DNA of 64,000 bases from an uncultured SAR116 cluster alpha proteobacterium. Its GTDB lineage: Bacteria > Pseudomonadota > Alphaproteobacteria > Puniceispirillales > Marisalimonadaceae. The translations under genes and the position numbers were made by a program. The stretch is from assembly GCA_902528415.1 (NCBI GenBank), contig CABZSR010000007.1, forward strand, positions 1 to 64,000. Reading direction: 5' to 3'. The notes beneath the pieces were generated by a model. The model made no database searches and had not been told where the DNA came from. It was given only the letters and a program-made list of their open reading frames with translations. This document shows, one piece after another, positions 4,680 to 34,249 of the stretch (positions are counted from its first letter, which is position 1; each line of letters starts with the position of its first letter).

Positions 4680-5960
4680 TCATCTTAAATAATCAAATAA
4701 ATTTAATTGTGAGATTTTAACAAAAGACTGCTGACTAGCTTGCATTGATGTTAACATACTTTGTAAATCAGTTACTAAGGCCGCAAGGTCTGCATCTTTC
4801 AAATCACTAACGTCTTTTTCAACAGCCAATCTTCTTTGTGCTAAATGTTCAATTTGTCTATCAAGTGAATTATTTCTTGCCCCAATTTCACCTCTATTAT
4901 TAGCAATATGAACTTGAACAGAAGCTATATTATCAATTTGCTTTGACGGTAACTGGTTGTTGTCATATAATTTTTGAACACTACCTATTTTATTTCCAGT
5001 TCCGTCGGTGGGTTGAACATTGAAAAAAGAGCCAGGAGTTTTCTGCGCAGAATTGACACCGTACACAGACAAATTTTTGATTTCCATGGGTCCATTTACT
5101 GAGTCAGTTAATTTTATTGTCTTACCGTCATCATTAATGGAGGCTGTAACGCCAGTAGAACTTAAATTAATTTGTTTTACAAATTCTGAAGGATCTTCTC
5201 CGGTAATTTCCGTTGTAATGGTTGCAGTTCCTAAATTTCCTGTAAGATCAAAGGTCCAGGTTCCAGGATTTTTATTTTCAAACGTTAATTCGGCTACACC
5301 ATTAGACTTAACTGAGTTAACTCCACCTGAAGCAGTTCTAATAGAAAAACTGATATCTTCTAACATTTGGAAGATTGATACATTTATTCCATCTGATCCC
5401 TTAACAGCTTCAAACAATGTGCCACCATCAAGAGTTGTTTCCATTACTCGAGATTCTGAAATAGAAAGGGATGATATTCCCCTATCACCTTTGTAATTAA
5501 TTTTACCAGCTAGATCTTTTACGAAAGGCATAGTATTAGTTTTATAACCACTGAATAAGTAACTACCATTACTGTCTTTGGCATTTGCTACACTCAAAAT
5601 TTCTTCTTTCATTTCGTCAACTTCTAGAGCAATAGCGTCTCTATCAGAAGCACCAAGCACATCGCTAGATGCTTGTATAATTAATTCTTGAGTCCTTATC
5701 ATAATATTAGTTAAATTTTCTAAGTTTTTGTCTAATAGATTTAATCTATCTGAAGCAGAATTTACATTTCTTTCATACTGTTCAATTCTTTTTTTAACCA
5801 CATTTAATCCTGACAATTCAACTGAACCCACTGGATCATCTGAAGCACGTAAAATATTTTCTCCAGTAGCAATTTTATTTTGTAAATCTTGCAATTCTTC
5901 AGTTGTAGAGGAAAATTGTTTAAGTTGTTGTTGATTAAATAGTTTTGAACTTATTTGCAT
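4680..5960 (-). CDS. flgL: Flagellar hook-associated protein 3 FlgL
   Basis: 426 aa; MQISSKLFNQQQLKQFSSTTEELQDLQNKIATGENILRASDDPVGSVELSGL flagellin-like N-terminus and matching C-terminus. Confidence 0.9.
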   Translation of the reverse strand: MQISSKLFNQQQLKQFSSTTEELQDLQNKIATGENILRASDDPVGSVELSGLNVVKKRIEQYERNVNSASDRLNLLDKNLENLTNIMIRTQELIIQASSDVLGASDRDAIALEVDEMKEEILSVANAKDSNGSYLFSGYKTNTMPFVKDLAGKINYKGDRGISSLSISESRVMETTLDGGTLFEAVKGSDGINVSIFQMLEDISFSIRTASGGVNSVKSNGVAELTFENKNPGTWTFDLTGNLGTATITTEITGEDPSEFVKQINLSSTGVTASINDDGKTIKLTDSVNGPMEIKNLSVYGVNSAQKTPGSFFNVQPTDGTGNKIGSVQKLYDNNQLPSKQIDNIASVQVHIANNRGEIGARNNSLDRQIEHLAQRRLAVEKDVSDLKDADLAALVTDLQSMLTSMQASQQSFVKISQLNLFDYLR

Positions 5961-5977
5961 TTATTAGCCTATTATTT

Positions 5978-8900
5978 TTATACAACCTCAATAAGAGATT
6001 GAAACAATTCTTTAGCTGTTTGCAAAATACGTGCCGAAGCTTGGTAAGCTTGTTGAAATTCAAGTAAATGGGCAGCTTCTTCGTCTAAATTAACTCCAGC
6101 AAATTCGCTTTGACTTGCTTCTGCTGCTTCTAATATATTTGAAGCTGAATCAAGCGAAAGTTTACTAGCTTGTACATTTGAACCTATCTTAGAAACGGTT
6201 ATATTGAAGGTTTTTTGAAAATTTCCTCTATTTTCTCCAGTTTTATCCTCGCCCTGTAAACTTAAGATATTAAGAATATTTCTATTATCTCCTTTACCGT
6301 CCAAATTGGTTGAAAATTCAAAACTATTACTCAAAATAGGTTCTTCTGAAAATTGAAATTTAGAATTATTTACTTCAAAAACTCTGTTTACATCTAAAAT
6401 TCTAGATGCGATCGAATGACCAGATTTTTTATCAAAGATTTCTACTTTATTTTTGTTATTAGCATCAACCTTAATTGTTAATTCTGGATCAAAGTCACTC
6501 TTGACACTTTTATTTTCAGGAACCTTATCAAATTCAGCACTAATCTTTCTTGCACCTTTTCCCATTACTATGGTGATCAAGTCCTCTGGAGGCAGATCAC
6601 TTATATTTACTTTTTCAGCAACTGAGTTTTGAATAGAGTTATTAGGTATATCAATCTTTACAGGTTTACCAGAAAACGAAGTAATTTTTAATCCGTCATT
6701 ATCTACAGTTGCACGAATATCTTGTGTTTTAATTCCATAAAGTCGATTAGCGTTGGGACTGCCATCCATTTTAAAATTGACATCATCAATAGTATGACTA
6801 AGGGTTAGTCTTCCTACTTTTTGAGTTCCTACTTTAACAGTTGAGGCAGAAGCACTAGCAGGGGTTATAGACGTAATCTGAGAAAAAACTTTTTCACCTA
6901 CAACTTTTGCTCCTGCTGCTTGGGCTGTTATTACTTCAGTTTGTGTGTTCCCGAACTGGTCTAATCCAACTATAGTATATTTTTCTCCAAGATCATTACC
7001 TGCAGGTGTAATAGTAATAACTTGCGGATCTATAGTAACATGTGTAGCCTGGACCCCAATCTCTATAGTGCCAGCTGTATTGTTAGATGCTGAAATAGAT
7101 AAAACTTCACTGAAAGAAATACTACCTAACGCCGTTCCTCCGCTAACACCTGTAATAGTTTCCGTTCTGTAAACTCCTGAAGTGTCATATCCATTAACAA
7201 CAAAGGAATTACCTGTTTCATTTCCATTACAAAGAACTGTGATTTTTCCATTCAGTGCCTTTGAGCCATTTAAAACCCCGTCTAGAGTTAACGCACCTGC
7301 TAACGGTGACTTACTTATCATCATTCCGTCAACATCTGTGGTAGAAAGAGTACCATCAGTAATAATTGGAACACCTGCAGACAGATTGTTATTAAATAAG
7401 GAAACATCATCTGTTATGCCGGAAGACTCACTCCACGATAAGGATATGCCGGATGGAGGAGAACCGCTTAAGGCTGATCCCTCACTATTAAAAAAAACTG
7501 GCACATTACTATCATTGAATTTAATTGAAAAATTAGTTGTAACATAATTTTCTGTTACCTCAATTGAAATAGCTGGATCAGATGCAGTTGGTTGTACAAC
7601 AAAATTACCTACAAGAGACGCTTTAGCTTTCTTTAAACCAAATGACTCTGCATTCATTGTATTTGCTGTATTTGAAACTAATTCAAATTGCGCACCCTCA
7701 ACTGTTCCTTCAGCTGTTGCTATTAATTCAAAACCAGGGGCTGTTCCAATTTCTATATTTCCACTCGTGTTAATATTGGGAGTAATAGTAGTGATTGTCT
7801 TAAAAAGACCTAAAGATGTAACTGTATTGCCTTGCGTTGGACCAATAATAGTTTCTGTTTTACTTTGTCCATCGGTGTCAGTACCAACTATAGTGAATGT
7901 TTTGTCACTTTCATTACTTGTAGATGTTATTGACACTCTAGTTCCAGATCCAAAACCAGGTGTTGCTCCCACATATATGTCATTAGCATTATTATCAGTT
8001 GAAATTTGAGTAACAGTCTTAAAATATTTTGTTCCTGTCACACTATTATTGTTGATCCCAGTTATTGTTTCAGTCTGAGCATTTCCATCTATATCTGTTC
8101 CTGTAATTGTAAAAGTTGCAGAAGTATTATTAGTTGGACTAGAGATTGTAATTCTTGAATTCAAAGATGAAGAAGCTAAACTTGACAAGGCACCAGTAAT
8201 GTTAAAGTTGCTGTTATTTCCAACTGTTTGGTTAACTACTAATCCATCACTATCAACCACGGAATTTATTCCATTCATAGTCAAAGCATTAGAGGCTGTA
8301 CCAGACTGGGCTGTTGCAATTGAATTAGTAATATTTTCTGATGTCCCATTAAACCGAGCCTTTATTCTATTTTCCTCAGGTCCTTCAACTAATAATTCAC
8401 CTGAAGTCATATTTAGTCTAAAAATTTGACCTTCAAAACTTAAATCAACAGACTGGCCGTCTTTTGGTAATGAGTTAAGAACTATTCCTTTAAGTTGCGA
8501 TGTTGGCGTTTCTGATCTTAAGCTTGATAAAATAGCTGTAGAAATTTCTTTTTCGGTGTCTGCATTAAGAGCATTTGCGTCTATAGTAGTATTCCAATTT
8601 CCGTCAGCTGCTTTGGTGCCAATCCTAATACTACCATTATTTGTTCCAGAACTATTTATTGAGGTTACTGTTTTAAATATGTTAGTAGTTGTGACCACAC
8701 CTCCATTTGATCCTAATATAGTCTCACTTATAACTTTATTGTCCAAATCTGTACCACTGATGACAAAACTTGTGCCAGTAGTATCTTGTCTACTTTTAAT
8801 TTCTATTTGTGCGCCAAGATAATTTGAAGTTGATAAAACTCCATCCATTGTTAAAGCACCAGACGAAAATGTTGTTAATTCAACTAAACTGTCGTCGTCA

Positions 8901-11900
8901 TTGATATCATTTCTACCTATTGTTCCTATTTTTATATTTCCACTTGTAGTAGCAGACGATACTATAGATGTTATGGTTGTAAACTTTGTAGACCCAATTG
9001 CAGTATTAGATGAACCAACGCCAGTAATTTCTTCTGTTATAACTGTACCACTTGCGTTGGTACCTGTAACTGTAAATTTATTTCCAGTTTCAGTCGCTGA
9101 GCAATAAATTGTTACAACTGAGTTTAAGTCATTTGCGTCTTTTAGAGCACCATTTAGAGATATTGTTCCGGCTGCACCAGGATTATTTGAGGTGTATAAG
9201 CTATCATCGTCGTTTACAAATAATTTATAGTCTTTTTGATTAATATCTAAACCATATTTAGAAAGACCAACTACTGCTTTTTTACCGTCTGGTGCTCCTA
9301 AACTATTGTCTAGACTGTTAAAAACCTCAGGATTAATTGTAACTTTTTCGCCTGTTTTATTTCTGTCAACTTTAATGTATCCGTTAGTGAGTGAGTCTAA
9401 AGTTGCAGAATTGACTACCCCTGTATTAATTTGTGTAGAAAAACTCTCACTTGAAACGAATTTCAATTCACCCTTTATATTGGCCGATGTTTTGTTGTTA
9501 TTACTTACATCTATTAATAACTTAGAATTTAATTGTGAATTATTTTCACTTAATCTATCAAAATTTTCTCCAAATGTTTCAAGAAAAAAGTCGGAAGGAG
9601 CAGAAATATTTTTAAGGTTTACATCATATCCATCTTTGGAATCAATTATTATTTTTTTAGAGTCACCTGTGACATTTGCTATCAAACCTGTTTGAGATGA
9701 ATATTCATTAATACTTTTAGCCAAAGCAGATAAGTCACTTGCTGCAACACTCGCATTAATTGATACAGCATTACTATTCTTAGCTTTTAGATCAAAAGTA
9801 ATTGATCCACTTGTACCTTCATCCAATGGTCCTAGCATAACCTTAGTACTAGCGGATACATTTACACCTGTTCCTGCTAAATCAGTTTTGAGTTTATTAG
9901 CCGAATAATACGCGTTTGTTCCTACAGGTACATTTATAGTTTTCACAACATTATCACTATTAGTAATATTTAGAGAGTAGCCAATTGCTTCAGTTCCAAT
10001 TGAAATTTTTCCAGCTGAGTTACCATCAATACTAATACTTCTAACTTTACTGAAAATTTTGCTTCCTGTTACAGTTACTATATTGCCGCCGGTAATTGTT
10101 TCAGTTTGATAAAGTCCATCTAAATCATATCCAGTAACTGTAAAAGTCCTAGTTGATTCATCTTTTTCACAGGCAATTGAAATATGTGAATTTAACTCTT
10201 TAGAGTATATTTTTTCACCATCAAGCGTCAATGAACCACTGGTCACAGTTTTAGTTGTAAGCAAACCATCCATGTCCGTACTTTGTTCATTGTAACTTAA
10301 GTTTGAGCCAAAACTACTAACATAATCTCCACTAGCAGTTTTCCTTGATAAATTCATACCTCTATAATTATTATTTAAATAATCATTTCTATACTCAGCA
10401 GACTCTAAAAACCCATTCTCTTTTTTAATTAAAGAAGCTACCTCAGAGGCATCTAAAGTTGTGCCAGAAACATGTCTTCCGTCTCGGGTAAAGATTTGAA
10501 TCTTACTAGGTAACGCAGCCAAAGCAGAAATATTTGAAATTGAGGCTGAAAAAGAATTACCTTTAGAAAATATTGAAGCGTTTGAAATATCAGATTCTGA
10601 GGATGCTATTGTGAGATATCCATTAGCACCAGAGGCAAATAATCCATACTTTCTAAAATCATGTTGACTTTTCCCATCCAACATCAAACCTGAATTTAAT
10701 AAGTCTGCAAACTCTTCTACAGATTTTATTCCATCTCCAGGATCGGTAGCGGCTGAACTTAAATTTACTTCATTTCCATTTGCAAGAGTGATTTTAAATG
10801 ATGAAAAACCTTTGATATCGGCGTCTGAAATAGTAATCGTTCCAGACGATTGATTACCTATTGAAGATAAATTAATTGACTTTATTGACGGTTGTATAGT
10901 TGATATAGGTCCATCTTGCAAAAAAGATGTTGCTACTAAAGGATTATTACTTGAGGTAAAAACATCCTTTATTTGTGGAGGATGACCTAATTTTGGTTGT
11001 TGAATAGTACCAATTAAATTTAATTCAACTTCGCCTACATTAGCGGAGCTTTTGGAAATTAAATTTTTAGATGACGCAGCAAAATCTTTGGGATTTGTTA
11101 GATTAAATTGCATTGCACCAGATTTAGTCGTACTTGGAGATATTATAAAACCATCATTGTCTTCAGGCTCTCCTATAACTTCGATTTGATAACCATTAAA
11201 ATTAAGCAAATTTCCTCTTGTAAAAGAAACACCAACCGAATCTCTTATTTTCCACTCATTATTAGTATTATTGTAATTTACATATATTTTTTCTTGTAAG
11301 ATGTTGCTTGGATCACTTTCAACAATGTTGAAACTTAGAGAACTCTTATTATTGTAGTTAGCCTTTGGAGTCATTGAGTTAACTGAAAACATTGCTTTTC
11401 CAGTCTGTCCGTTAAGATTAATACCGGAAGTTTGAATATTATTTATTTCATTTGAAAATTGTTCAGCAAGACTACTTATTTCACTTTGGACCAGTCTAAC
11501 TAAACTATAAAATTGTGAAATTCCAGATAATATGCCTGAAGAGAATGTAGCAGTTGATTTTATTCCCTGTTTATTAACAATAATTGATATATTATTTTCG
11601 TCTGAAGCTGATGTAAGTATCGCAGCATTATTTCTTTTTAGAATATTTACTCCGTTTCCTGAATCACCTAATCTAATTTCAGCTGCTCCTGTTTCATCGA
11701 AATTTACAGTGAAATTAAGTATTTTAGAGAGGTCTTTTAACAATTTATCTCTAGCATCTAAAACATCATTAGAAGCATCTTTAATACCGCTCGTAGAGAT
11801 TAAACTGTTAACTTTAGATAGTTGATCTAAATTTAAATTTACTTCAGTTAATTTAATATCAACTTGTTTAAGAACACTTGAATTAAAGTTTTTCAGTTGA

Positions 11901-12358
11901 GTATCATAATTATTAAAAGATGAGGCCAATGCTTTTCCTGCTTCTAAAGCAACAGTGCGAGCAGCAATACTATCAGGGTTACTTGCAACGTCTTGTAGAG
12001 AATCAAAAAATCTTCCAATGAAAATACCTAAATCACTTCCTGAAGGTAACAACATATCTTCTAAATCGCTTAATTTTGAGACTAACTCATTTAGCATTTC
12101 ATAGTCTGATTGAGATGACCTGGTTTTATCGGACAAGTATGCATCAAATGATCTTTTAACTCTTGCAACTCTTACCCCTAGACCAGAATTATCTGACACA
12201 TTAGTTGGTCCTCCAGAGACGCCTGCAACTTCAGTAATATCTGCGCTTCTTTTATTATAACCTTCTGTATTAATATTAGCTATATTTTGACCGGTAACAG
12301 ATAAAGCTTGTCTATAGGCTTGTACCCCAGTTTTTCCGATTTCAAATAAAGAAGCCAT
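5978..12358 (-). CDS. flgK: Giant flagellar hook-associated protein 1 FlgK (2126 aa)
   Basis: N-term MASLFEIGKTGVQAYRQALSVTGQNIANINTEGYNKRSADITE and C-term AGVNLDEEAAHLLEFQQAYQASARILQTAKELFQSLIEVV are FlgK; long central repetitive insert. Confidence 0.93.
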   Translation of the reverse strand: MASLFEIGKTGVQAYRQALSVTGQNIANINTEGYNKRSADITEVAGVSGGPTNVSDNSGLGVRVARVKRSFDAYLSDKTRSSQSDYEMLNELVSKLSDLEDMLLPSGSDLGIFIGRFFDSLQDVASNPDSIAARTVALEAGKALASSFNNYDTQLKNFNSSVLKQVDIKLTEVNLNLDQLSKVNSLISTSGIKDASNDVLDARDKLLKDLSKILNFTVNFDETGAAEIRLGDSGNGVNILKRNNAAILTSASDENNISIIVNKQGIKSTATFSSGILSGISQFYSLVRLVQSEISSLAEQFSNEINNIQTSGINLNGQTGKAMFSVNSMTPKANYNNKSSLSFNIVESDPSNILQEKIYVNYNNTNNEWKIRDSVGVSFTRGNLLNFNGYQIEVIGEPEDNDGFIISPSTTKSGAMQFNLTNPKDFAASSKNLISKSSANVGEVELNLIGTIQQPKLGHPPQIKDVFTSSNNPLVATSFLQDGPISTIQPSIKSINLSSIGNQSSGTITISDADIKGFSSFKITLANGNEVNLSSAATDPGDGIKSVEEFADLLNSGLMLDGKSQHDFRKYGLFASGANGYLTIASSESDISNASIFSKGNSFSASISNISALAALPSKIQIFTRDGRHVSGTTLDASEVASLIKKENGFLESAEYRNDYLNNNYRGMNLSRKTASGDYVSSFGSNLSYNEQSTDMDGLLTTKTVTSGSLTLDGEKIYSKELNSHISIACEKDESTRTFTVTGYDLDGLYQTETITGGNIVTVTGSKIFSKVRSISIDGNSAGKISIGTEAIGYSLNITNSDNVVKTINVPVGTNAYYSANKLKTDLAGTGVNVSASTKVMLGPLDEGTSGSITFDLKAKNSNAVSINASVAASDLSALAKSINEYSSQTGLIANVTGDSKKIIIDSKDGYDVNLKNISAPSDFFLETFGENFDRLSENNSQLNSKLLIDVSNNNKTSANIKGELKFVSSESFSTQINTGVVNSATLDSLTNGYIKVDRNKTGEKVTINPEVFNSLDNSLGAPDGKKAVVGLSKYGLDINQKDYKLFVNDDDSLYTSNNPGAAGTISLNGALKDANDLNSVVTIYCSATETGNKFTVTGTNASGTVITEEITGVGSSNTAIGSTKFTTITSIVSSATTSGNIKIGTIGRNDINDDDSLVELTTFSSGALTMDGVLSTSNYLGAQIEIKSRQDTTGTSFVISGTDLDNKVISETILGSNGGVVTTTNIFKTVTSINSSGTNNGSIRIGTKAADGNWNTTIDANALNADTEKEISTAILSSLRSETPTSQLKGIVLNSLPKDGQSVDLSFEGQIFRLNMTSGELLVEGPEENRIKARFNGTSENITNSIATAQSGTASNALTMNGINSVVDSDGLVVNQTVGNNSNFNITGALSSLASSSLNSRITISSPTNNTSATFTITGTDIDGNAQTETITGINNNSVTGTKYFKTVTQISTDNNANDIYVGATPGFGSGTRVSITSTSNESDKTFTIVGTDTDGQSKTETIIGPTQGNTVTSLGLFKTITTITPNINTSGNIEIGTAPGFELIATAEGTVEGAQFELVSNTANTMNAESFGLKKAKASLVGNFVVQPTASDPAISIEVTENYVTTNFSIKFNDSNVPVFFNSEGSALSGSPPSGISLSWSESSGITDDVSLFNNNLSAGVPIITDGTLSTTDVDGMMISKSPLAGALTLDGVLNGSKALNGKITVLCNGNETGNSFVVNGYDTSGVYRTETITGVSGGTALGSISFSEVLSISASNNTAGTIEIGVQATHVTIDPQVITITPAGNDLGEKYTIVGLDQFGNTQTEVITAQAAGAKVVGEKVFSQITSITPASASASTVKVGTQKVGRLTLSHTIDDVNFKMDGSPNANRLYGIKTQDIRATVDNDGLKITSFSGKPVKIDIPNNSIQNSVAEKVNISDLPPEDLITIVMGKGARKISAEFDKVPENKSVKSDFDPELTIKVDANNKNKVEIFDKKSGHSIASRILDVNRVFEVNNSKFQFSEEPILSNSFEFSTNLDGKGDNRNILNILSLQGEDKTGENRGNFQKTFNITVSKIGSNVQASKLSLDSASNILEAAEASQSEFAGVNLDEEAAHLLEFQQAYQASARILQTAKELFQSLIEVV
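6806..10245 (-). repeat. At least seven diverged ~75-95 aa repeats within flgK
   Basis: Repeated pattern GxLTLDGxL...ITIxxxxNETGxxFTVTGTDxxGxxxTETITG...TGTxxFKTVTSI...AGxIxIGT; approximate copies at 9972-10245, 8905-9185, 8600-8872, 7950-8216, 7729-7945, 7037-7298, 6806-7034. Confidence 0.85.
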
Positions 12359-12691
12359 TTACTTTTCTTTCTTTAATTGAAAATGTGGTTGAAATTGTTT
12401 AATAAGTGCTTCTGCTATACCAAAATTATTTTTCTTAGATAAAATTTGGGAATATTCTATGTCAAGCATATTATTAAATGTATCTTGAGCCTCAGAACTA
12501 AAAACCCCTTCAGCTAGCCTACTTTGTCTTGCCTGTTTTAACATTTGATGTACAAAGATAGACTCGAACTGCTCTGCTACATTTTTTAAGTCTTGATTAT
12601 TTCTTTCTTTTAAAAACAAAGAATTTTGATCTTGTGAAACCTTTGTTGCAAGAAAATTAATATGATTTGTTTTTGAAATAGAATTATCCAT
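12359..12691 (-). CDS. flgJ: FlgJ-like rod assembly protein, rod-binding domain only (no muramidase domain)
   Basis: 110 aa; LKNVAEQFESIFVHQMLKQARQSRLAEGVFSSEAQDTFNNMLDIEYSQILSK. Confidence 0.85.
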   Translation of the reverse strand: MDNSISKTNHINFLATKVSQDQNSLFLKERNNQDLKNVAEQFESIFVHQMLKQARQSRLAEGVFSSEAQDTFNNMLDIEYSQILSKKNNFGIAEALIKQFQPHFQLKKEK

Positions 12692-14514: not shown

Positions 14515-15300
14515 TTATAGATTCTGACTTATAAATCTAAGCATATCATCCACACCAGATATTGCTTTTGAGTTTACTTCATAGGCTCTTTGCGTTTCAA
14601 TCATATCGACTAATTCTTGAACTACATTTACATTTGAACTTTCAAGGGCCCCTTGAACTAAACTGCCAAAACCATTTTCAAAAGGATTGGCTACAACTGG
14701 AACACCACTTCCAGGTGTCTCTACCAACATTGACTGTCCAATTGGTTGTAAACCTCTAGAATTTGGAAAATCTGCCAACTGAAACTGTCCAACTTCTTCT
14801 GCCTCAACCTCACCTGGGTTTTGAACAGAAACAATCCCGTCAGCAGAAATATTTATATTTGTAACACCCTCAGGTATAGCTATTTCAGGTTGAATTACAT
14901 ATCCAGATGCTGTTGTTATAAGACCTTCAGCATTCCTACCAAAAGCGCCATTTCTTGTATAACCAACTCTTCCATCAGGCATTAAAACCTGAAAAAACCC
15001 TGAACCATCTATTGATACATCTAATGCATTGTCTGAAGAAACTATATTACCTTGTGAAAACAATTTATCTGCATTAATAATACGAACACCTGTTCCTACT
15101 GAAAATGCAGAATTTGATTTTGTTTCTCCTGAAGTTTGTGCACCAGATGCTTTTATAACTTGATATAAAAGTGTTTCAAAATTTGCTCTATCTCTCTTAA
15201 AACCTGTAGTATTCACGTTAGCTAAGTTATTGGCAATAACCTGCATTCTACTATTTTGAGCATTTAAACCAGTTTTTGCAACGTGCATCGCATTAGACAT
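14515..15300 (-). CDS. flgG: Flagellar distal rod protein FlgG
   Basis: 261 aa; NLANVNTTGFKRDRANFETLLYQ and ESSNVNVVQELVDMIETQRAYEVNSKAISGVDDMLRFISQNL. Confidence 0.97.
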   Translation of the reverse strand: MSNAMHVAKTGLNAQNSRMQVIANNLANVNTTGFKRDRANFETLLYQVIKASGAQTSGETKSNSAFSVGTGVRIINADKLFSQGNIVSSDNALDVSIDGSGFFQVLMPDGRVGYTRNGAFGRNAEGLITTASGYVIQPEIAIPEGVTNINISADGIVSVQNPGEVEAEEVGQFQLADFPNSRGLQPIGQSMLVETPGSGVPVVANPFENGFGSLVQGALESSNVNVVQELVDMIETQRAYEVNSKAISGVDDMLRFISQNL

Positions 15301-15364: not shown

Positions 15365-16117
15365 TTAACTCGGCATTCTCATTAGAGATGCTGTAGCTTC
15401 ATCAATTTCTTTTGCTGTAGTAACAAACTTTACATTTATTTCGTAAGCTCTTGACTGATCGATACCTGCGACAAGCTCGTCTACCGATTTTACATTGGAA
15501 CCCTCTAAAAATCCACTTAATAACACTGTTCTATTATCCGCTGCAGGTATAGATCCATCTATTGGCCTTACAAATCCATCAATTGTCTTTGCCAAGGGTA
15601 CTTCAGATCCAAAAGTTGTAGCCAATTGTGCAACTTTTATTTTTTGACCAAGGGGTGAATTTAGTGGCTCGATTTCTATTATTCCATCACCTGACACCGA
15701 AATTCTTCTATGTGGTGGAACTATAATTGGTTCAAGATCTACACTAAGTGGTTGAGTTCCAGTCCCATCTCTTAAAGTTCCATCTGCAGAAACTGTAAAG
15801 TCTCCCCTACGAGACAACGCCACTTTGCCATTAGAAGGCTTAACAATAAAATACCCACTCCCGTCAACACTTAAATCAAGGGGTGCGCCTGTTTGCTGCA
15901 TAGGGCCAGGAGTCGAATCAAATCCGCCAGGTTCTTGAAGTGCTAATACCCTAGGGTCTATACCTTTATCACGATCCAAGTACACAGAGGAAAAGTTAAT
16001 TTGCACATCTTTTTGAAACCCTGTCACGCCTATGTTAGCCAAGTTTTGTGCTGTAACTGATTGATTGTCTCTCAAAATATTCATGCTATTGAGAGCTGTG
16101 TAAATACTGCGATCCAT
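15365..16117 (-). CDS. flgF: Flagellar proximal rod protein FlgF
   Basis: 250 aa; MDRSIYTALNSMNILRDNQSVTAQNLANIGVTGFQKD. Confidence 0.93.
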   Translation of the reverse strand: MDRSIYTALNSMNILRDNQSVTAQNLANIGVTGFQKDVQINFSSVYLDRDKGIDPRVLALQEPGGFDSTPGPMQQTGAPLDLSVDGSGYFIVKPSNGKVALSRRGDFTVSADGTLRDGTGTQPLSVDLEPIIVPPHRRISVSGDGIIEIEPLNSPLGQKIKVAQLATTFGSEVPLAKTIDGFVRPIDGSIPAADNRTVLLSGFLEGSNVKSVDELVAGIDQSRAYEINVKFVTTAKEIDEATASLMRMPS

Positions 16118-16144: not shown

Positions 16145-19100
16145 TTATGTCCTAATTTGAATGATTGCTTGAGTTAAGCTTGTATTAGTTTCAATTGTTT
16201 TTGCATTCGCCTGAAAGTTTCTCTGCGCTGTTATTAAGTTTACAAGTTCTTCGGTAATATCAACATTAGATCTTTCTAGTGAACCAGAGAGTATCGTTCC
16301 ATATCCATCAGCTCCTGCCTCTCCAACTGCGGCAACACCTGAGACCGAAGTTTCAACGTACGTTGCGTTACCAACTTGCTTGAGGCCATTCTGGTTATTA
16401 AAGTTTACCATTACAAGTCGTCCAAGTGCAATATTCAATCCGTTTGTATAGTTAGCACTAACCAATCCGTTAGCTGCTACATCCAAACCATCTAACTTAC
16501 CAACAGTTTGTCCATCTTGCGTAACTGTTCTAACATTAAAGTCAGAAGCAAACTGTGTTGAACCATCGAAATTTAAGTCTAAGTCAATGGAAAGAGCATT
16601 AGTACCAGCTGCAGCGTCTGCTGCAAAGTCACCTTGATATCCAACTTTTTGAATAGGACTTACTAAGTTACCTTGAGTATCAAATGTCAACTCTCCTGGT
16701 CTTATGAAAACTTTAGCAAAAGTACCATCAGTTGTTGGGGTCCAGGCATTATCTGGAGCAAGAGTCGTAGTTGTTCCAGCATCATTAACGTATAAAGATT
16801 GACCTGTATCTGATTTAGCTATTGTATTTGCCATGTTAACAAATGAAGGAGTAGTTCCAGTTACCAATTCGAGGTTGTCTAAACCCATACGTGCACTAGC
16901 TGAAACGAATATTTTACTTTTTAATCCAGTTGTGCCAGTAGTAAACGTAAACGAGTTACTTGTAGAGTTGTAAACAACAGTAACTCCATTTACTGTGTTA
17001 CCTGAAGTATCTTCCATTTGATTAATTCTTGATTGAAGAGCCGTTGCTAAAGAAGTTCCATTATAAACTCCTTCAGGAACTTGAATAGCAGCTGTAATAT
17101 CGTTAACGTTTACAACAAAAATTGTCTCTTCAGCAGCATCGGATAAGAAAAAATCCTCTGATAAATCCTCGTTAGATGTTCTACCATTTAAAACTGCTGG
17201 TTCTGACTTTAAACCTTTACCCGAGGTATCTGCTGTTACAGTCGTAATTGCATTAGTAGCGTTTATTCCTAAGAGAGCACTTGTACCCCCTGTTCCAGCA
17301 TTAGATGCAGTAGCAACACCGTCAACTATTGCTAATCTTCCTATTTCAATATTAGATGACGCTTGTCCACCGTCTCCAACACCAACAGCTGAATTTGCTG
17401 GTATATTTTCACCAGTTGTACCACTGGCAATGCTAAATTTTCTTGTAAGATTATTATAAGATACTTCAACTCCAAAAGCCTGTTGAGTGTCAGCAGCTAT
17501 CTGGTCACCTGTAAACAAGACTGATTCTGCTTTTAATAAAGCACCACCACCAATGTTTGATGAGGCTTTATTAGTTTGTGTTTTTAAACCAATTGCATTT
17601 GCACTGTTACCTTCTCCAGGTCCGTATGCTGAAAATGAGAACATTTTACTGGCCGTTGAAGTACCTATTTTAGAGGGAATACCTTGCAGAGTAAAATTTT
17701 GGGATGAAAAATCATATGCAATTCTTAAGGCAGGATCATTTTCATCTACCCAATCATCTGAACTTGATACATCTTGTGTAATGACTGAATCTATCTCATG
17801 TTGAAGAGCTGTAGTTCCACCAGCACCTCTTATTAAACCAGTAAAACTAGTTGCTGTTTTACCAGTATATTCAATGAGTTCATTACCAATTCTAATAAAA
17901 CCGTTATCTTCAAAATCAGCAGTTGAGTCAACTGTAAGAGTAGTAGCAGTTGTTGTTAGTTGCGCGCTTACGTCTGTACTCCTCGAGGCTAATCCAAGAT
18001 TTTCTACACTATCAAATAAACTTAGAGTTGTTGTTGCTGCTACAGATTTGCTTTCACTGTTATCAACACCTCTGGTTATACCAGTTAAAGTTGTTCCGGT
18101 TTTACCAGTATAAGTAATTATTTCATCACCTAATTTAAATTTCCCAGGTGCGTCTGCACTAGCAGCTGTAAATCCGGCGGTCGTTCCCACAGTTAACGTT
18201 TCTGAGTCAGGTGGTAAAAAAGTAATTGATGTATTATCAGGTATAATTGCTGTTGTGGCAGCGCTTATTGTTATAACTGCATTGTTAATAGCTGTAACTG
18301 TCGTACCTACTGTTACACCAGCGACTTCGACAATGTCACCGACTGATATATTAGTGTTTGCATCAACCGTTATATTGGTTGCTCCCTCTGCAACTTCACC
18401 GTTAATAAGTACTTGAGCCCCTAAACCGTCTTCATCAACAAAACTTAATTCACCTCCAACAATATCCGCAGTAGCTGCATTTGATAAAGTAATAGTTGTA
18501 CCTGTGATCCCAGTTACGGTTGTATTAGCAGGTATATTAGTTCCAAAAACAGCATCTCCAACTGCAATATTGGTAGCATCTAATACAGCTAGAGTTGTTG
18601 CTGTACCACCTGTTACGTCAACAGTTCCAGTGGTATGACTACTAGCTAAAAAAGTAACTTTTGTGCCTGCAGCTGTTGCTGAATTAGCATTTAATACGGC
18701 TGTAGGATTTGCACTTAGTTGTAGTTGTCTGTCATTTGTAATTGCAATAACTCTAGTACCTGCTGTTATTCCAGCTCCTACAACCCTGTCCCCTATCCTA
18801 ATACCTTTTGTTCCACCGTCAACTGTAAGAAGATCAGAGTTTGTAGCACCAGCCGCAGTTCTCTCATATATAACGTTGGTACCAGCTGTGCCTGCTGTTC
18901 TTCCGGCAGTAGCTGGTGTAGCCGTAAGTGTAGTACTTCTTAAAATATCAGTAAAGTCACTCATAATTCCGTCAGTGAAAGTAACTAATTTGACAGTTGC
19001 ATCGTCTTGGGCAGTAGCTTTTGTAGTGCCATTGACTTCCCTGGTAACTCCCGTAAATGATGTAGCGGTAGTACCAGTATAATTCACTTGTTCAGTACCT

Positions 19101-21265
19101 ATCAACAAAGTACCACTAGCAGGGAAACCAGCAGTGGTGTCTACTGTAAGTGTTGTTACAGTATCATTTATAGCACCATTTAAAAGTGTATTTGGCTGTT
19201 TAACATCTTTGTTAAGATAAGAATGTTTATTTAACTCCTTTAAAACTATTCTATTGCTTCCAAAATGTTCTGTTTGTCCTGAGAAGACATCCGTACCACC
19301 TTCAAAATAAGCAGATATATCTTTAGATTCTGTATGTAGAACTTTGATTTTTGTGTCTGTAATATTTATTGCAGTTGTTGAGTCTGATTTTAAATTTAAA
19401 AACTCATTACCATCAGCATCTGTACCAGCACTAGATACAGAAAATTTTGCACCGTTATATTTTGCATCATTTACCGTAGAGGCTGTCGTGTCAAATTCAC
19501 CAGCTAAGAACACCTCAGTTGGAAAACTGGTAGAGCTTATTGTATTAGCTGTGTCATTTATATAAACTTTCAAAGTTCCACTGGCATCTTGAACCATAGT
19601 ATTTCCGCTTACTGCTGTAACATCCAGAGCCTTATCAAAAACTTTTAGCGTAGGAGAGGCATTGTAATAACTATGTAATAAAAATTTTTCTTCGTTTGTT
19701 ACGTTATTTTCGTCTGATAAGTCTGCTGTAGGATGTTTATAATTAAAACTTAATACTTCAGTTTCTTTAATTGCACCATCAAGTGCTTTCCCATTCACTC
19801 TGCTAAATAATGAAGAATTAACACCGTAGGTAGAAGAGTTGTTAGTATTACCGTCAGAGGAAACTGCTGCCCTATTTAAAGCATCATTTATCCTTAATTG
19901 AGCGTGGGCTAAAAATTCTTCTCTTGTAAAATTTGGTGATGCAACATTTTCTATTCCATTTGTAATAGAAAAAAGGTCTTCTGTTACAAAACTGTCTTTC
20001 ATTAAATCAACATTAATAGCTGCCAAAGTTTGAATTTCGTCGTTATTGTCAAGCTGATTAAATTGTATTGAAAAACTGCCATCAGTTACAGGATCAATGG
20101 CTAATTTAGAATCATCTGACAAACCTGCATTTATAGCTCTTTGAACCTCAGACGCAAGAGAGGTTGCAGTGTAAGTCCCAGGTCTAATATCAATACTCTT
20201 AAAACTCGCGCTTCCTGTTGTATCATCGACTCGAACTGTTAAGAAATCCTTACCCCAGTAAGTTGATTTGTTAAGAGTTGGGTTAGCTTCATAAGTGGTA
20301 TAATATTGTAGGGGGTCTGTTACAACTGTTATAGAAGGCGCTGTTGCAGTGAAAGCAGCATCCTCTAAAACTGTTGACTCGACTGTCGCGGCTTTCGAAA
20401 CCGTCTTGTTAGATAAATCATCTAGAAAAAATAGAGGTTGAGTTTGGGCAACAGAAATAATTTGTGGTTTTTCATTAATTGGGATTATTTGACCAAAACG
20501 ATCAACAACTAACGTTTGACCAGTTGGAGAAATAGCTTCAGTTAGAGATGGTTGAACCTCTCTTCCGTCCACTATAAATTTTGTTTGATATTTGTGAGTT
20601 GCTTGATCACCTGAAGCTGCTTGTGTTTTTATAAAAAAGGCTGTCGCAATAACCGGGTTACCTAAATTATCAAAAATTGTAACAGAAGTAGAAGAATTAA
20701 ATGTAGCTGGATTTTTTGGATCAAAATCAGCAGCAGATTCAAAAACAGTTGATGACGCTGGTAAATTTACCGCTAATTCTAAGTTATCTGTCTTTTTAGC
20801 CTCTCCTGCCTCTAACTCTAATTTAAGAGGTTTAGCATCAACAATTTCACCACCTTGAACAGATCCATCATCAGAAACAGGTAACGCGAGTACAAACTGA
20901 CCTGCAGAATCTACAACAAATCTGTCATTATTTACTGAAAAAGAACCGTTTCTGGTATAAACGGTTTGATTAGTAGTTAAAGATGGCTTCAAAGCAAAAA
21001 AACCTTGTCCTGAAATAGCCATATCCAAAGCATTAAGTGAGGAAGAAACGTTACCTTGAGTAAATTGCTGTTTAATTCCCTTCAAAATAGTTCCAGAACC
21101 AATCGATGAAGAGCTGTTCTGTAATGGAGAAGTCGCAAAGATATCGCCAAATTCAGCTTTACTTCTTTTATAACCTGTAGTCGCAACGTTAGCGATGTTA
21201 TTTGACGTTGCTGATATATCTGCTTGTGATCCGTTTAATCCTGTAAGAGCGGTATAAAATGACAT
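16145..21265 (-). CDS. flgE: Giant flagellar hook protein FlgE (1706 aa)
   Basis: N-term MSFYTALTGLNGSQADISATSNNIANVATTGYKRSKAEFGDIF and C-term GSLERSNVDITEELVNLITAQRNFQANAKTIETNTSLTQAIIQIRT are FlgE; very long central insert. Confidence 0.94.
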   Translation of the reverse strand: MSFYTALTGLNGSQADISATSNNIANVATTGYKRSKAEFGDIFATSPLQNSSSSIGSGTILKGIKQQFTQGNVSSSLNALDMAISGQGFFALKPSLTTNQTVYTRNGSFSVNNDRFVVDSAGQFVLALPVSDDGSVQGGEIVDAKPLKLELEAGEAKKTDNLELAVNLPASSTVFESAADFDPKNPATFNSSTSVTIFDNLGNPVIATAFFIKTQAASGDQATHKYQTKFIVDGREVQPSLTEAISPTGQTLVVDRFGQIIPINEKPQIISVAQTQPLFFLDDLSNKTVSKAATVESTVLEDAAFTATAPSITVVTDPLQYYTTYEANPTLNKSTYWGKDFLTVRVDDTTGSASFKSIDIRPGTYTATSLASEVQRAINAGLSDDSKLAIDPVTDGSFSIQFNQLDNNDEIQTLAAINVDLMKDSFVTEDLFSITNGIENVASPNFTREEFLAHAQLRINDALNRAAVSSDGNTNNSSTYGVNSSLFSRVNGKALDGAIKETEVLSFNYKHPTADLSDENNVTNEEKFLLHSYYNASPTLKVFDKALDVTAVSGNTMVQDASGTLKVYINDTANTISSTSFPTEVFLAGEFDTTASTVNDAKYNGAKFSVSSAGTDADGNEFLNLKSDSTTAINITDTKIKVLHTESKDISAYFEGGTDVFSGQTEHFGSNRIVLKELNKHSYLNKDVKQPNTLLNGAINDTVTTLTVDTTAGFPASGTLLIGTEQVNYTGTTATSFTGVTREVNGTTKATAQDDATVKLVTFTDGIMSDFTDILRSTTLTATPATAGRTAGTAGTNVIYERTAAGATNSDLLTVDGGTKGIRIGDRVVGAGITAGTRVIAITNDRQLQLSANPTAVLNANSATAAGTKVTFLASSHTTGTVDVTGGTATTLAVLDATNIAVGDAVFGTNIPANTTVTGITGTTITLSNAATADIVGGELSFVDEDGLGAQVLINGEVAEGATNITVDANTNISVGDIVEVAGVTVGTTVTAINNAVITISAATTAIIPDNTSITFLPPDSETLTVGTTAGFTAASADAPGKFKLGDEIITYTGKTGTTLTGITRGVDNSESKSVAATTTLSLFDSVENLGLASRSTDVSAQLTTTATTLTVDSTADFEDNGFIRIGNELIEYTGKTATSFTGLIRGAGGTTALQHEIDSVITQDVSSSDDWVDENDPALRIAYDFSSQNFTLQGIPSKIGTSTASKMFSFSAYGPGEGNSANAIGLKTQTNKASSNIGGGALLKAESVLFTGDQIAADTQQAFGVEVSYNNLTRKFSIASGTTGENIPANSAVGVGDGGQASSNIEIGRLAIVDGVATASNAGTGGTSALLGINATNAITTVTADTSGKGLKSEPAVLNGRTSNEDLSEDFFLSDAAEETIFVVNVNDITAAIQVPEGVYNGTSLATALQSRINQMEDTSGNTVNGVTVVYNSTSNSFTFTTGTTGLKSKIFVSASARMGLDNLELVTGTTPSFVNMANTIAKSDTGQSLYVNDAGTTTTLAPDNAWTPTTDGTFAKVFIRPGELTFDTQGNLVSPIQKVGYQGDFAADAAAGTNALSIDLDLNFDGSTQFASDFNVRTVTQDGQTVGKLDGLDVAANGLVSANYTNGLNIALGRLVMVNFNNQNGLKQVGNATYVETSVSGVAAVGEAGADGYGTILSGSLERSNVDITEELVNLITAQRNFQANAKTIETNTSLTQAIIQIRT
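17760..19195 (-). repeat. Two interleaved internal repeat types within flgE
   Basis: Type A (3 copies): TTLTVDTTAGF..GxxxIGxExxxYTGxTxTxxTGxTRGVxGTT. Type B (about 3 copies): ISVGDxVxGxxIxAGTTVTAITxxxITLSxxATA. Confidence 0.8.
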
Positions 21266-21295: not shown

Positions 21296-21988
21296 TTAAT
21301 TCTTAAATCTGACAACTTGTGAGGGGTCAATCGTTCCATAATCTTCAACTTCTAACATTACCCCGTTTTTAGTTTTTGAAGTTCCATTAACATTTGCGTA
21401 TACTTGTGTTGAAAGTTCACCAGTATCACCCAAATTACCAGTAAATGCTCTTATTGTTATTGGAGAGTTAGAAGTTTTAATATCCTCGGGTAAATCTTTC
21501 CACTCGAAACCTACTAAACCAGCCTTTTGCATTCCAAGTGTATCTTGATGTAAAACCTCACCATCACTATTTTCAAATATAATACTTAAGTTAGAAGCCG
21601 TGTCAGGCAAGTCTACAATGCCACTTATAATACCTTCTTTATCTGGTCGAGCATATTTACCAGGGACTAATACAGAATGACCCATTAATTGTGTTGTTGA
21701 AGCAATTCTCATTTCAGATAGTTGTTGGCTTACAGACTTCATAGTTTCGTCCATAGAAGTAATACCAGTAACTGTAGAAAACTGCGCCATCTGGGCTATA
21801 AAATCAGCGTTATCGACAGGAGCAAAAGGGTCTTGGTTTTGTAATTGTGTAGTCATTAATTTAAGAAAATCTTCTTGTCCAAGCTGATCTTTTGTCTCTT
21901 TAGGCGTAAATTTTTCTTTAGCAGAATTAATGCCTAATTTATCTAAAATATTTGTTAGTGATTGATTTGATGAATTAATTTCAGACAT
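21296..21988 (-). CDS. flgD: Flagellar hook capping protein FlgD
   Basis: 230 aa; LGQEDFLKLMTTQLQNQDPFAPVDNADFIAQMAQFSTVTGI. Confidence 0.96.
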   Translation of the reverse strand: MSEINSSNQSLTNILDKLGINSAKEKFTPKETKDQLGQEDFLKLMTTQLQNQDPFAPVDNADFIAQMAQFSTVTGITSMDETMKSVSQQLSEMRIASTTQLMGHSVLVPGKYARPDKEGIISGIVDLPDTASNLSIIFENSDGEVLHQDTLGMQKAGLVGFEWKDLPEDIKTSNSPITIRAFTGNLGDTGELSTQVYANVNGTSKTKNGVMLEVEDYGTIDPSQVVRFKN

Positions 21989-21994
21989 AATTTA

Positions 21995-22408
21995 TTACTT
22001 TCCTATGTTTAGTGTTCGCATTGTTAGAGCTCTTAAAGTTGTTATAACTTCAACGTTATTTTGGTACTGCCTGGATGCCTCCATCATATCTACCATTTCT
22101 TCGTCTACATTTACGGCTGCTTTATATATGTATCCATCCGCATCTGCCGCCGGGTGGGCAGGCATATAGGACTTGATGGGCTCTCTTCCAATTTCTTTCA
22201 CTTCAACTGCGTCAACTGTTGCGACACCGTTTTTCTTGACTAAATCACTATATTGCGTTTCAAAAATTGGTTTTAGTGGCTTATAAGTAGTCTTTGGATC
22301 ACCAGTGGTAGATCCTGCATTAGCAAGGTTTGAAGCTACCGTATTTAATCTTACTAATTGGGCAGCCATTGCTCGACCAGCTATATCATAAACTGATTTA
22401 ATATCCAT
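21995..22408 (-). CDS. flgC: Flagellar proximal rod protein FlgC
   Basis: 137 aa; VNVDEEMVDMMEASRQYQNNVEVITTLRALTMRTLNIGK. Confidence 0.96.
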   Translation of the reverse strand: MDIKSVYDIAGRAMAAQLVRLNTVASNLANAGSTTGDPKTTYKPLKPIFETQYSDLVKKNGVATVDAVEVKEIGREPIKSYMPAHPAADADGYIYKAAVNVDEEMVDMMEASRQYQNNVEVITTLRALTMRTLNIGK

Positions 22409-22794
22409 TATTCACCCCTGATCGCCGACATAATTTTGTTAATTTTTCCATTTAGAAAATTTACTGTAGTAGAATATCTCATTGAATTTTCTGCAAATTG
22501 CATTTGCTCAACAGCTAGTTCAACTGTGTTTCCATCTAATGATGTTATTAGAGGCTCTCTATATGAAACTTCGTTAACTGATTTACCTGAATTTTGTACT
22601 ATATGGTTAGAATGTGATGTGATTATAGGCCCGTTTTTATCTAGTTTTTTAATTTCATCTTCAAAACTTATATCTCTTGCCTTGTAATTAGGTGTTGCTG
22701 CGTTAGCAATGTTGGAAGCTAAAATATTGTTACGCTTACCTCTTAATTGTAGGGCCGATGAATAAAAAGATAATTGATCTTTGATTGTATCCAT
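22408..22794 (-). CDS. flgB: Flagellar proximal rod protein FlgB
   Basis: 128 aa; RGKRNNILASNIANAATPNYKARDISFEDEI. Confidence 0.95.
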   Translation of the reverse strand: MDTIKDQLSFYSSALQLRGKRNNILASNIANAATPNYKARDISFEDEIKKLDKNGPIITSHSNHIVQNSGKSVNEVSYREPLITSLDGNTVELAVEQMQFAENSMRYSTTVNFLNGKINKIMSAIRGE

Positions 22795-32908: not shown

Positions 32909-33712
32909 TTAACCGTCAATTAATCTTTTTGTTATATCAACTTCAGTCTGTAGCAGTCTAGAAACACCTGAAAATGCTTGCTGTGTCTTTAGCATTGTTA
33001 CCATCTCAGAAGTAATATCTACATTTGCTCTTTCTAAGTTGCCTGCTTCAAGTTTTCCAAAAGCACCATCCATAGGAACACCAAATTTAGGCAAACCTGA
33101 TTTAGCATTATTTTGAAAGCGATTATTTCCGACAGGTTGTAATCCCTGATCATTTACAAAAGAAGCCAATACAAAATTTCCAATATCAACTTCTTGATCA
33201 AGTCCATATATAGCTGTGATCTTACCTTTTGAACTAACATTTATGTTAGAAATTATAGAAATACTTTGATCTGTATTTTCTTTTGTTGTTGGAATAACTA
33301 AATTTTTTAAAACTCCTTTGTTATCTCCCATAAAACCCATAACACTTAATCCGTCGTTAGTAACAACTTCACCATTGGCTTTTATGTTGAATGAACCATC
33401 TCTAGTAAAATATGGCTTATCAATTTGATTTCCTTGAACCACAGGAAAAAAACCTAATCCAATTACTGCTAAATCCAAGGCACCTCCTGTTACCTGCAAA
33501 GAACCTTGGCTCATTTGTAAACGTGGATCACTAATATTTACGCCTTGTCCGGAAAACTTATCCGGATCTGTTGAATTATGAGTTGAGTAAATATGTTCAA
33601 AATTTGTACTACTTTTTTTAAAACCTGTACTATTTGCATTTGCTATATTGTTAGAAACTATTCCCATTTCTTTTGTGTTAGCATTTAAAGCACTTTTTAG
33701 AATTGATAACAT
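32909..33712 (-). CDS. Additional FlgE/FlgF/FlgG-family rod/hook protein
   Basis: MLSILKSALNANTKEMGIVSNNIANANSTGFKKSSTNFEHIY and LERANVDITSEMVTMLKTQQAFSGVSRLLQTEVDITKRLIDG; start at 33712 because the track start (33742) would overlap a sigma-54-like promoter. Confidence 0.88.
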   Translation of the reverse strand: MLSILKSALNANTKEMGIVSNNIANANSTGFKKSSTNFEHIYSTHNSTDPDKFSGQGVNISDPRLQMSQGSLQVTGGALDLAVIGLGFFPVVQGNQIDKPYFTRDGSFNIKANGEVVTNDGLSVMGFMGDNKGVLKNLVIPTTKENTDQSISIISNINVSSKGKITAIYGLDQEVDIGNFVLASFVNDQGLQPVGNNRFQNNAKSGLPKFGVPMDGAFGKLEAGNLERANVDITSEMVTMLKTQQAFSGVSRLLQTEVDITKRLIDG

Positions 33713-33850: not shown

Positions 33851-34249
33851 ATGAGCAAACCCTCTAAAAGTACAGATTTAGTAAAATTTAATAAAAAAAA
33901 ATCTAACCTCCCAATAAAATTTGATCAAACTGAAGTGAAACAAGCTCTTGAATTAGTTGATAAAGATTTAATTTTAAAAAATAGAGAAGATGTAAAAAAA
34001 TATTTACCTGATATATTAGGAAGAGTTTTAGCTAGAATATGGATTGATAAATCTTTCAAGAATAGTTTTAAGTCAAACCCCAAGGAAGTTTTAAATGATA
34101 ATGGTGTTTTTTTACCAGACGATATGATACTGGAATTCCAAAAACCAAATTCCGATAGGCCTAAAATTATAGTTTATGAAAAAAAAGAAAAATCAAATTT
34201 TAAGGTTAGGGTTGTACAGTTACAATTAGTAATGTTAGCAGGCAGATAG
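33851..34249 (+). CDS. Nitrile-hydratase-alpha/NHLP-leader-like protein
   Basis: 132 aa; LGRVLARIWIDKSFKNSFKSNPKEVLNDNGVFLPDDMILEFQKPNSDRPKIIVY resembles NHLP leader peptides. Confidence 0.55.
   Translation: MSKPSKSTDLVKFNKKKSNLPIKFDQTEVKQALELVDKDLILKNREDVKKYLPDILGRVLARIWIDKSFKNSFKSNPKEVLNDNGVFLPDDMILEFQKPNSDRPKIIVYEKKEKSNFKVRVVQLQLVMLAGR

Follow-up and report, generated by a model that had tools for sequence, protein, structure and literature searches.

The window, meaning the whole stretch of 64,000 nucleotides that was analysed, carries an intact flgBCDEFGHIJKL cluster in a SAR116 alphaproteobacterium, and flgE within it (16145-21265, minus strand) is a reading frame of 1706 codons that starts with ATG and is flanked by flgD and flgF. 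The other genes of the cluster lie on the same strand, with flgB at 22408-22794, flgC at 21995-22408, flgD at 21296-21988, flgF at 15365-16117, flgG at 14515-15300, flgK at 5978-12358 and flgL at 4680-5960, together with flgH, flgI and flgJ. The hook cap protein FlgD (230 aa) and FlgL (426 aa) are of normal size, and FlgK is a giant hook-associated protein of 2126 aa. FlgJ, encoded at 12359-12691, has 110 aa; its match to FlgJ models is confined to their N-terminal part, and it lacks the peptidoglycan hydrolase. A 132-aa open reading frame adjoining the flagellar genes (33851-34249, plus strand) gives a match below the cut-off to the NHLP leader peptide family (31.9 versus 50.9 bits). The GC content of flgE (0.34-0.41) is not distinct from that of the adjacent genes, so there is no compositional signal of foreign DNA, and tandem repeats are absent from the gene at the DNA level and show at the protein level only.

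The flgE product is a giant hook protein with a computed mass of 177 kDa and pI of 4.4, of which residues 301-1540 account for 128 kDa. Four Pfam domains exceed their cut-offs, namely Flg_bb_rod (residues 3-33), the D1 domain of FlgE/F/G (83-127), FlgE_D2, which is split into two pieces (168-290 and about 1509-1585), and Flg_bbr_C (1660-1704). The best matches in the PDB are FlgE hook structures and are confined to residues 1-277 and 1558-1706; ordinary FlgE of the Pseudomonas/Salmonella type (PDB 9yee, 8z5u, 6jzt) aligns at both ends, over D0, D1 and part of D2, but is without the roughly 1240 inserted residues. In the alignment the protein lacks the rod-specific insertion of FlgG and has D2, split by the insert. 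The score against the NCBI FlgEFG subfamily lies well above its cut-off (228 versus 70.25), whereas the best score against the FlgE equivalogs, 369.9 bits, falls short of the required 472, probably because the insert interrupts the match and not because the protein has a different identity. Pfam finds neither Flagellin_N nor Flagellin_C in it, so it does not belong with the giant flagellins. The sequence thus identifies the product as FlgE, and it is predicted to form the hook in the cell. The canonical FlgE ends read by the first-pass annotation are confirmed by the Pfam domains and PDB alignments at both termini. Its length estimate of about four times the usual also stands, as FlgE in an even draw across the class is mostly 400-650 aa long, with few giants. 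The roughly 1,200 additional residues that it placed in the central, exposed part are found as about 1240 residues inside D2, the outward-facing domain, so that every subunit of the polymer would bear a large radial decoration.

Nested layers of the insert and their distribution

An alignment of giants from different families and orders separates a conserved core from an insert whose inner part (residues about 300-690 and 1165-1540) is also conserved and whose centre cannot be aligned. Over the D0/D1 core, the window's FlgE shares 78-96% identity with giants from other families and orders. We divide the protein accordingly, with layer limits good to some tens of residues and all coordinates on the minus strand. 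The core, defined by Pfam and PDB matches, comprises residues 1-300 (20366-21265), which hold D0, D1 and the start of D2, and residues 1541-1706 (16148-16645), which hold the end of D2, D1 and D0. Layer 1 consists of residues about 300-465 (19871-20368) and of residues about 1256-1540 (16646-17500), the latter reaching the start of the second D2 piece. Layer 2, delimited by alignments, consists of residues about 465-690 (19196-19873) and about 1165-1255 (17501-17773). Layer 3 is a hypervariable tip of repeated beta modules (residues 700-1165; 17771-19168).

The nesting follows from two shorter homologues. An FlgE of gammaproteobacterial type (G491, 794 aa), which comes from another class, already has layer 1: it aligns at both ends to the giant profile, with smaller gaps at 320-350 and 378-401 in the N-terminal half of that layer, but it lacks window residues about 465-1255. 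A 1244-aa homologue lacks residues about 690-1160. From the positions of these gaps, the simplest reading is growth by insertion within insertion at one place, and the distribution suggests that it would have run from layer 1 to layer 2 to layer 3. Layer 2 gives the general giant type of marine alphaproteobacteria, and layer 3, which is missing from giants outside this SAR116 family, is seen only within it.

Giant FlgE recurs through the order and in other marine orders. A FlgE_D2 match is found in 54 of 81 genomes of the same genus, family and order, and 13 genera of the order have unbroken giant frames of about 1260-1750 aa, three of the genomes concerned being single contigs (lengths counted from the previous stop, with contig-end and frameshift cases left out). 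The named relatives are SAR116 single cells and metagenome-assembled genomes. A profile of the C-terminal half of the insert fetched 80 loci, in which 68 FlgEs are complete at 1244-1741 aa; HIMB59, PS1, Nereida ignava, and Lentibacter- and Sulfitobacter-like Rhodobacteraceae are among them, the homologues in HIMB59, PS1 and marine Rhodobacteraceae such as Nereida ignava having 1244-1510 aa, with 1364 aa in the cultured strain Nereida ignava CECT 5292. In total, 213 stretches of the genome collection code for a relative. One genome (G596, that of locus L125) has two giant FlgE genes on contigs C70 and C87, with frames of 1265 and 1244 aa, which represent either two giant-hook flagella or a mixed bin.

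Other large FlgEs are not related through their inserts. In the family f63 (G139, G318 and G238), FlgE has 1071-1263 aa with an insert that lacks similarity to that of the window, and a common origin was rejected because the cores alone align; large FlgE therefore arose more than once. In a side observation, L154 (845-4057, 1066 aa) and L155 (12656-16444, 1244 aa) encode an unrelated alphaproteobacterial-type giant FlgE in another family, alongside FlgK of normal size, and this is an independent origin of a giant hook protein.

Selection was compared along the gene between the window and nine relatives, many of the dS values lying above 1 and being rough. The core, with a dN/dS of 0.006-0.025 (about 0.01), is under extreme purifying selection; the inner layers (0.025-0.041) are under strong constraint, and the tip (0.138-0.271, about 0.2) is relaxed. 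The first-pass annotation had named an in-frame assembly fusion and a second, normal-length flgE as possible grounds against its reading, and neither held. A sign of a fusion or pseudogene is the broken FlgE frame in one relative, the single cell AAA015-N04, and against it stand the intact frames in 13 genera, single-contig genomes among them, and a dN/dS below 0.3 in every part of the gene. Chance or assembly fusion is thereby ruled out, and we assign that already refuted explanation a practically negligible probability. The window's genome, which is 73% complete, yielded no second flgE of normal length, the paralogue present being short and lacking D2 (267 aa); in the three single-contig relatives, D2 matches fall at one giant FlgE only.

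Tip modules and their probable exchange

The tip of the window's FlgE contains three copies of a module of about 55 residues (module A) and three of about 50 residues (module C), in the order A-C-C-C-A-A. On the minus strand these are A at residues 702-756 (18998-19162), C at 806-857 (18695-18850), 886-935 (18461-18610) and 961-1008 (18242-18385), and A at 1022-1075 (18041-18202) and 1106-1160 (17786-17950). Tips in the SAR116 family carry either this set or a run of A modules (AAAA), and a tree built from the remainder of the protein requires at least 2-3 changes between the two sets. The module models were trained on the same four proteins, where their E-values are not independent, and were then applied to proteins of other species, some of them close relatives; they found no copies in giants outside the SAR116 family. 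As a separate observation, residues 753-924 of FlgK in one relative (L046) hold three copies of module A, which suggests module exchange between flagellar proteins.

The tip modules resemble phage tail proteins both in sequence and in local fold. Module A is 46-51% identical to a cyanophage baseplate wedge initiator over 41-51 residues, a similarity noted for its third copy, and the insert matches PHROG structural families with E-values down to 1e-17. Comparison of the insert fold with predicted structural proteins of marine phages gave partial, local matches to modules and low whole-chain TM-scores. The likeness is one of module homology only, and not of membership of the whole protein among tail fibre or baseplate proteins. 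A permissive Pfam search of the insert returned only a weak MlaD-like match, RM6_Med14 below its cut-off and FlgE_D2.

Silent sites give signs of recombination in the tip. Between the window and L062, dS is 0.6 in the tip and 1.4-1.5 in the core and flanks. After Bonferroni correction, the fourfold-site divergence of the tip departs significantly from that of the remaining sequence in 18 of the 492 pairs compared, the tip being less diverged in 3 and more diverged in 15. The pairs share ancestry and so are not independent, and the tip alignment is less certain, but such discordance in both directions would be expected if lineages had exchanged tip sequence.

Giant FlgK and a mini-FlgE paralogue

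The giant FlgE of this type has two companions in the genomes tested. FlgK has 1199-2374 aa at the SAR116 loci and 1285-1793 aa in 13 distinct giant-FlgE genomes outside the window's family (G596 has a 523-aa frame as well). In the normal-FlgE genomes tested it has 450-904 aa, with one exception of 1186 aa in a genome that also has a 592-aa FlgK. A strict general link between giant FlgE and giant FlgK was rejected because FlgK in f63 has 741-751 aa, and there is thus no mechanical obligation for the two giants to occur together. The window's FlgK holds seven copies of a module of about 76 residues (module B), two more of which lie in the 739-aa flagellin of the genome; module B was first noticed through low-identity matches from BLAST self-comparison and from cross-protein BLAST without composition correction, matches on which nothing else here is based. 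Two divergently transcribed and quite dissimilar flagellins of 739 and 667 aa are encoded on contig C23 of the same genome (L059, 352-2589 and 3888-5912).

The second companion is encoded in the window at 32909-33712 (minus strand, ATG at 33712, frame open to 33742). This mini-FlgE has 267 aa, without D2 and without the rod-specific insertion to which FlgG rods owe their straightness (PMC5288503). In the tree the mini-FlgEs form a clade (SH-aLRT 92) that is sister to FlgE (89). Matches occur in 66 of the 81 relatives, a few of them through FlgG or FlgE only. In the wider test, each of the 13 distinct giant-FlgE genomes has a separate mini-FlgE beside FlgG, as do 7 of 7 giants of this type in the class draw, and seven normal-FlgE genomes gave only weaker matches, which fall on FlgG or FlgE. 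Among those tested, giant FlgK and mini-FlgE accompany giants of this type. We infer that mini-FlgE is a spacer or minor hook protein, although it could serve as a main or second hook protein.

The stronger form of the latter idea would make mini-FlgE the bulk of the hook and reduce giant FlgE to a minor part, such as a decorated collar at one end. Like hook proteins, mini-FlgE lacks the rod-specific insertion; it is sister to FlgE and not to FlgG, and it is present in every giant-FlgE genome of this type tested. A further hint comes from G204 and G285, in which a D2-less FlgE of about 270 aa adjoins flgF and flgG (L178, 9074-9886; L179, 9169-10041), so that a minimal hook without D2 may be viable. 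These two proteins, however, group in the tree with FlgE proper and not with mini-FlgE. Giant FlgE holds the place next to flgD in the flgBCDE cluster, and its D0/D1 core is far better kept: the median identity to the window's copy is 80%, whereas mini-FlgE of the same genomes reaches 41%. Such conservation is what a main polymer would be expected to show. On balance we regard a hook made mostly of mini-FlgE as quite improbable.

A probable thick, decorated hook

The predicted structure of the window's insert (residues 311-1510) is folded and beta-rich almost throughout, with a mean pLDDT of 74.7 and a pTM of 0.73, and a Foldseek search of it against the PDB gave no match at E<=0.001. In the AlphaFold model of a shorter homologue the insert has good confidence and D0-D2 low confidence; for this reason the point at which the insert leaves the core rests on sequence alignment. 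Foldseek with that model recovered FlgE hook structures and the Pseudomonas D2 domain. A volume calculation for the giant hook yields outer radii of 14-22 nm at packing densities of 1.0 to 0.3, and scaling suggests that a hook with 1240 extra residues per subunit would reach a width of about 40 nm at the packing of the Campylobacter jejuni hook.

C. jejuni offers the closest precedent. Its FlgE has 865 aa in domains D0-D4 and was named in 2016 as one of the longest (PMC5069557), its hook with the extra domains D3/D4 is 28 nm wide versus 18 nm in Salmonella and is more robust (PMC5097172), and Salmonella with a flgE encoding the extra C. jejuni domains is fully motile (PMC5069557). As in the giant FlgE, the extra domains lie in the outer part of the protein and the hook is wider, but the C. 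jejuni protein is half the length, and the text available of its description mentions no nested, repeated tip modules. Homology of the insert to D3/D4 was not found, the best sequence match to the C. jejuni structure 5jxl being to the core (query residues 1527-1705), and the fold search with the shorter giant gave FlgE hook structures but no 5jxl among the matches listed. The thick coat proposed in the first-pass annotation is favoured by the geometry and by the Campylobacter precedent (865 aa, 28 nm hook; PMC5097172). The Fla1 flagellum of Rhodobacter sphaeroides is likewise of gammaproteobacterial type in an alphaproteobacterium, with a bulky hook-associated region and a giant FlgK (FlgK1, 1363 aa) that needs its central region under load, but there the junction is enlarged and not the hook, FlgE having 423 aa (PMC7277832). 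Giant flagellins of marine gammaproteobacteria (PMC6248924) similarly combine a very large exposed insert in an axial protein, a thick structure and marine hosts; they are filament and not hook proteins, and the flagellins of the window's genome are merely moderately large (739 and 667 aa).

We consider it likely that giant FlgE assembles into a hook of the normal 11 protofilaments, surrounded by a thick radial coat whose inner layers are structural and whose tip is a variable surface. It would be the hook protein of a gammaproteobacterial-type flagellum in marine alphaproteobacteria; by homology, D0 and D1 would polymerise into the usual 11 protofilaments, and each subunit would carry folded, beta-rich domains of about 130 kDa, built up outwards through repeated insertions at the same D2 region, layer 1 and layer 2 being followed by the SAR116-family tip of repeated phage-tail-like modules. 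With this nested mass and its variable outer tip, the joint would probably be a thick decorated cylinder. We lean towards a role for the conserved inner layers in lateral contacts that stiffen or strengthen the hook under load. The fast-evolving, swapped tip modules are probably an exposed variable surface, and attack by flagellum-binding phages or grazers is the preferred, though tentative, cause of their change, to which we give somewhat less than an even chance.

Two other accounts of the decoration compete with the coated hook and its variable surface. The insert as a whole could be mechanical, strengthening only the hook and its junction, with a tip that varies merely through weak constraint. 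Strong constraint on the inner layers fits this account, as do the robustness of the C. jejuni hook (PMC5097172) and the impaired swimming under load caused by deletions in the central region of the 1363-aa FlgK1 (PMC7277832); drift alone, however, predicts neither the replacement of whole module sets nor tip and flanks whose silent-site divergence differs in both directions, and we hold the purely mechanical account to be a serious but minority possibility. An adhesive or particle-binding sheath, adhesion having been suggested in the first-pass annotation and the tip modules being similar to parts of phage tail-fibre and baseplate proteins, seems unlikely, as Pfam detects no carbohydrate-binding or adhesin domain above threshold and the likeness is to small repeated beta modules and not to known receptor-binding tips. 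A wider scheme, in which mini-FlgE and the nested giant FlgE jointly build a spacer plus a thick armoured hook in many planktonic marine alphaproteobacteria, with the tip as a phage-like cassette traded between species much as a variable antigen, is in our view rather doubtful as a whole.

The trait being lineage-wide, the three nested layers, the recombining tip, the giant FlgK and mini-FlgE all go beyond the first-pass annotation. No paper on a giant FlgE was found in the open-access literature searched, and on that provisional basis a giant hook of this kind appears to be undescribed. The hook counts among the flagellum's more uniform parts. Here free-living ocean SAR116 bacteria and several other marine alphaproteobacteria have a hook protein whose length is three to four times normal, up to twice the 865 aa once called one of the longest, and it has been retained in several ocean lineages. 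The natural series of FlgEs of about 430, 794, 1250-1400 and 1550-1750 aa bears on how much mass the universal joint can be loaded with and what that mass does, and layered growth at one site together with a swapping tip makes the forces acting on the exterior of the flagellum testable. Mini-FlgE, as the constant companion of these giants, points to a possibly new axial part.
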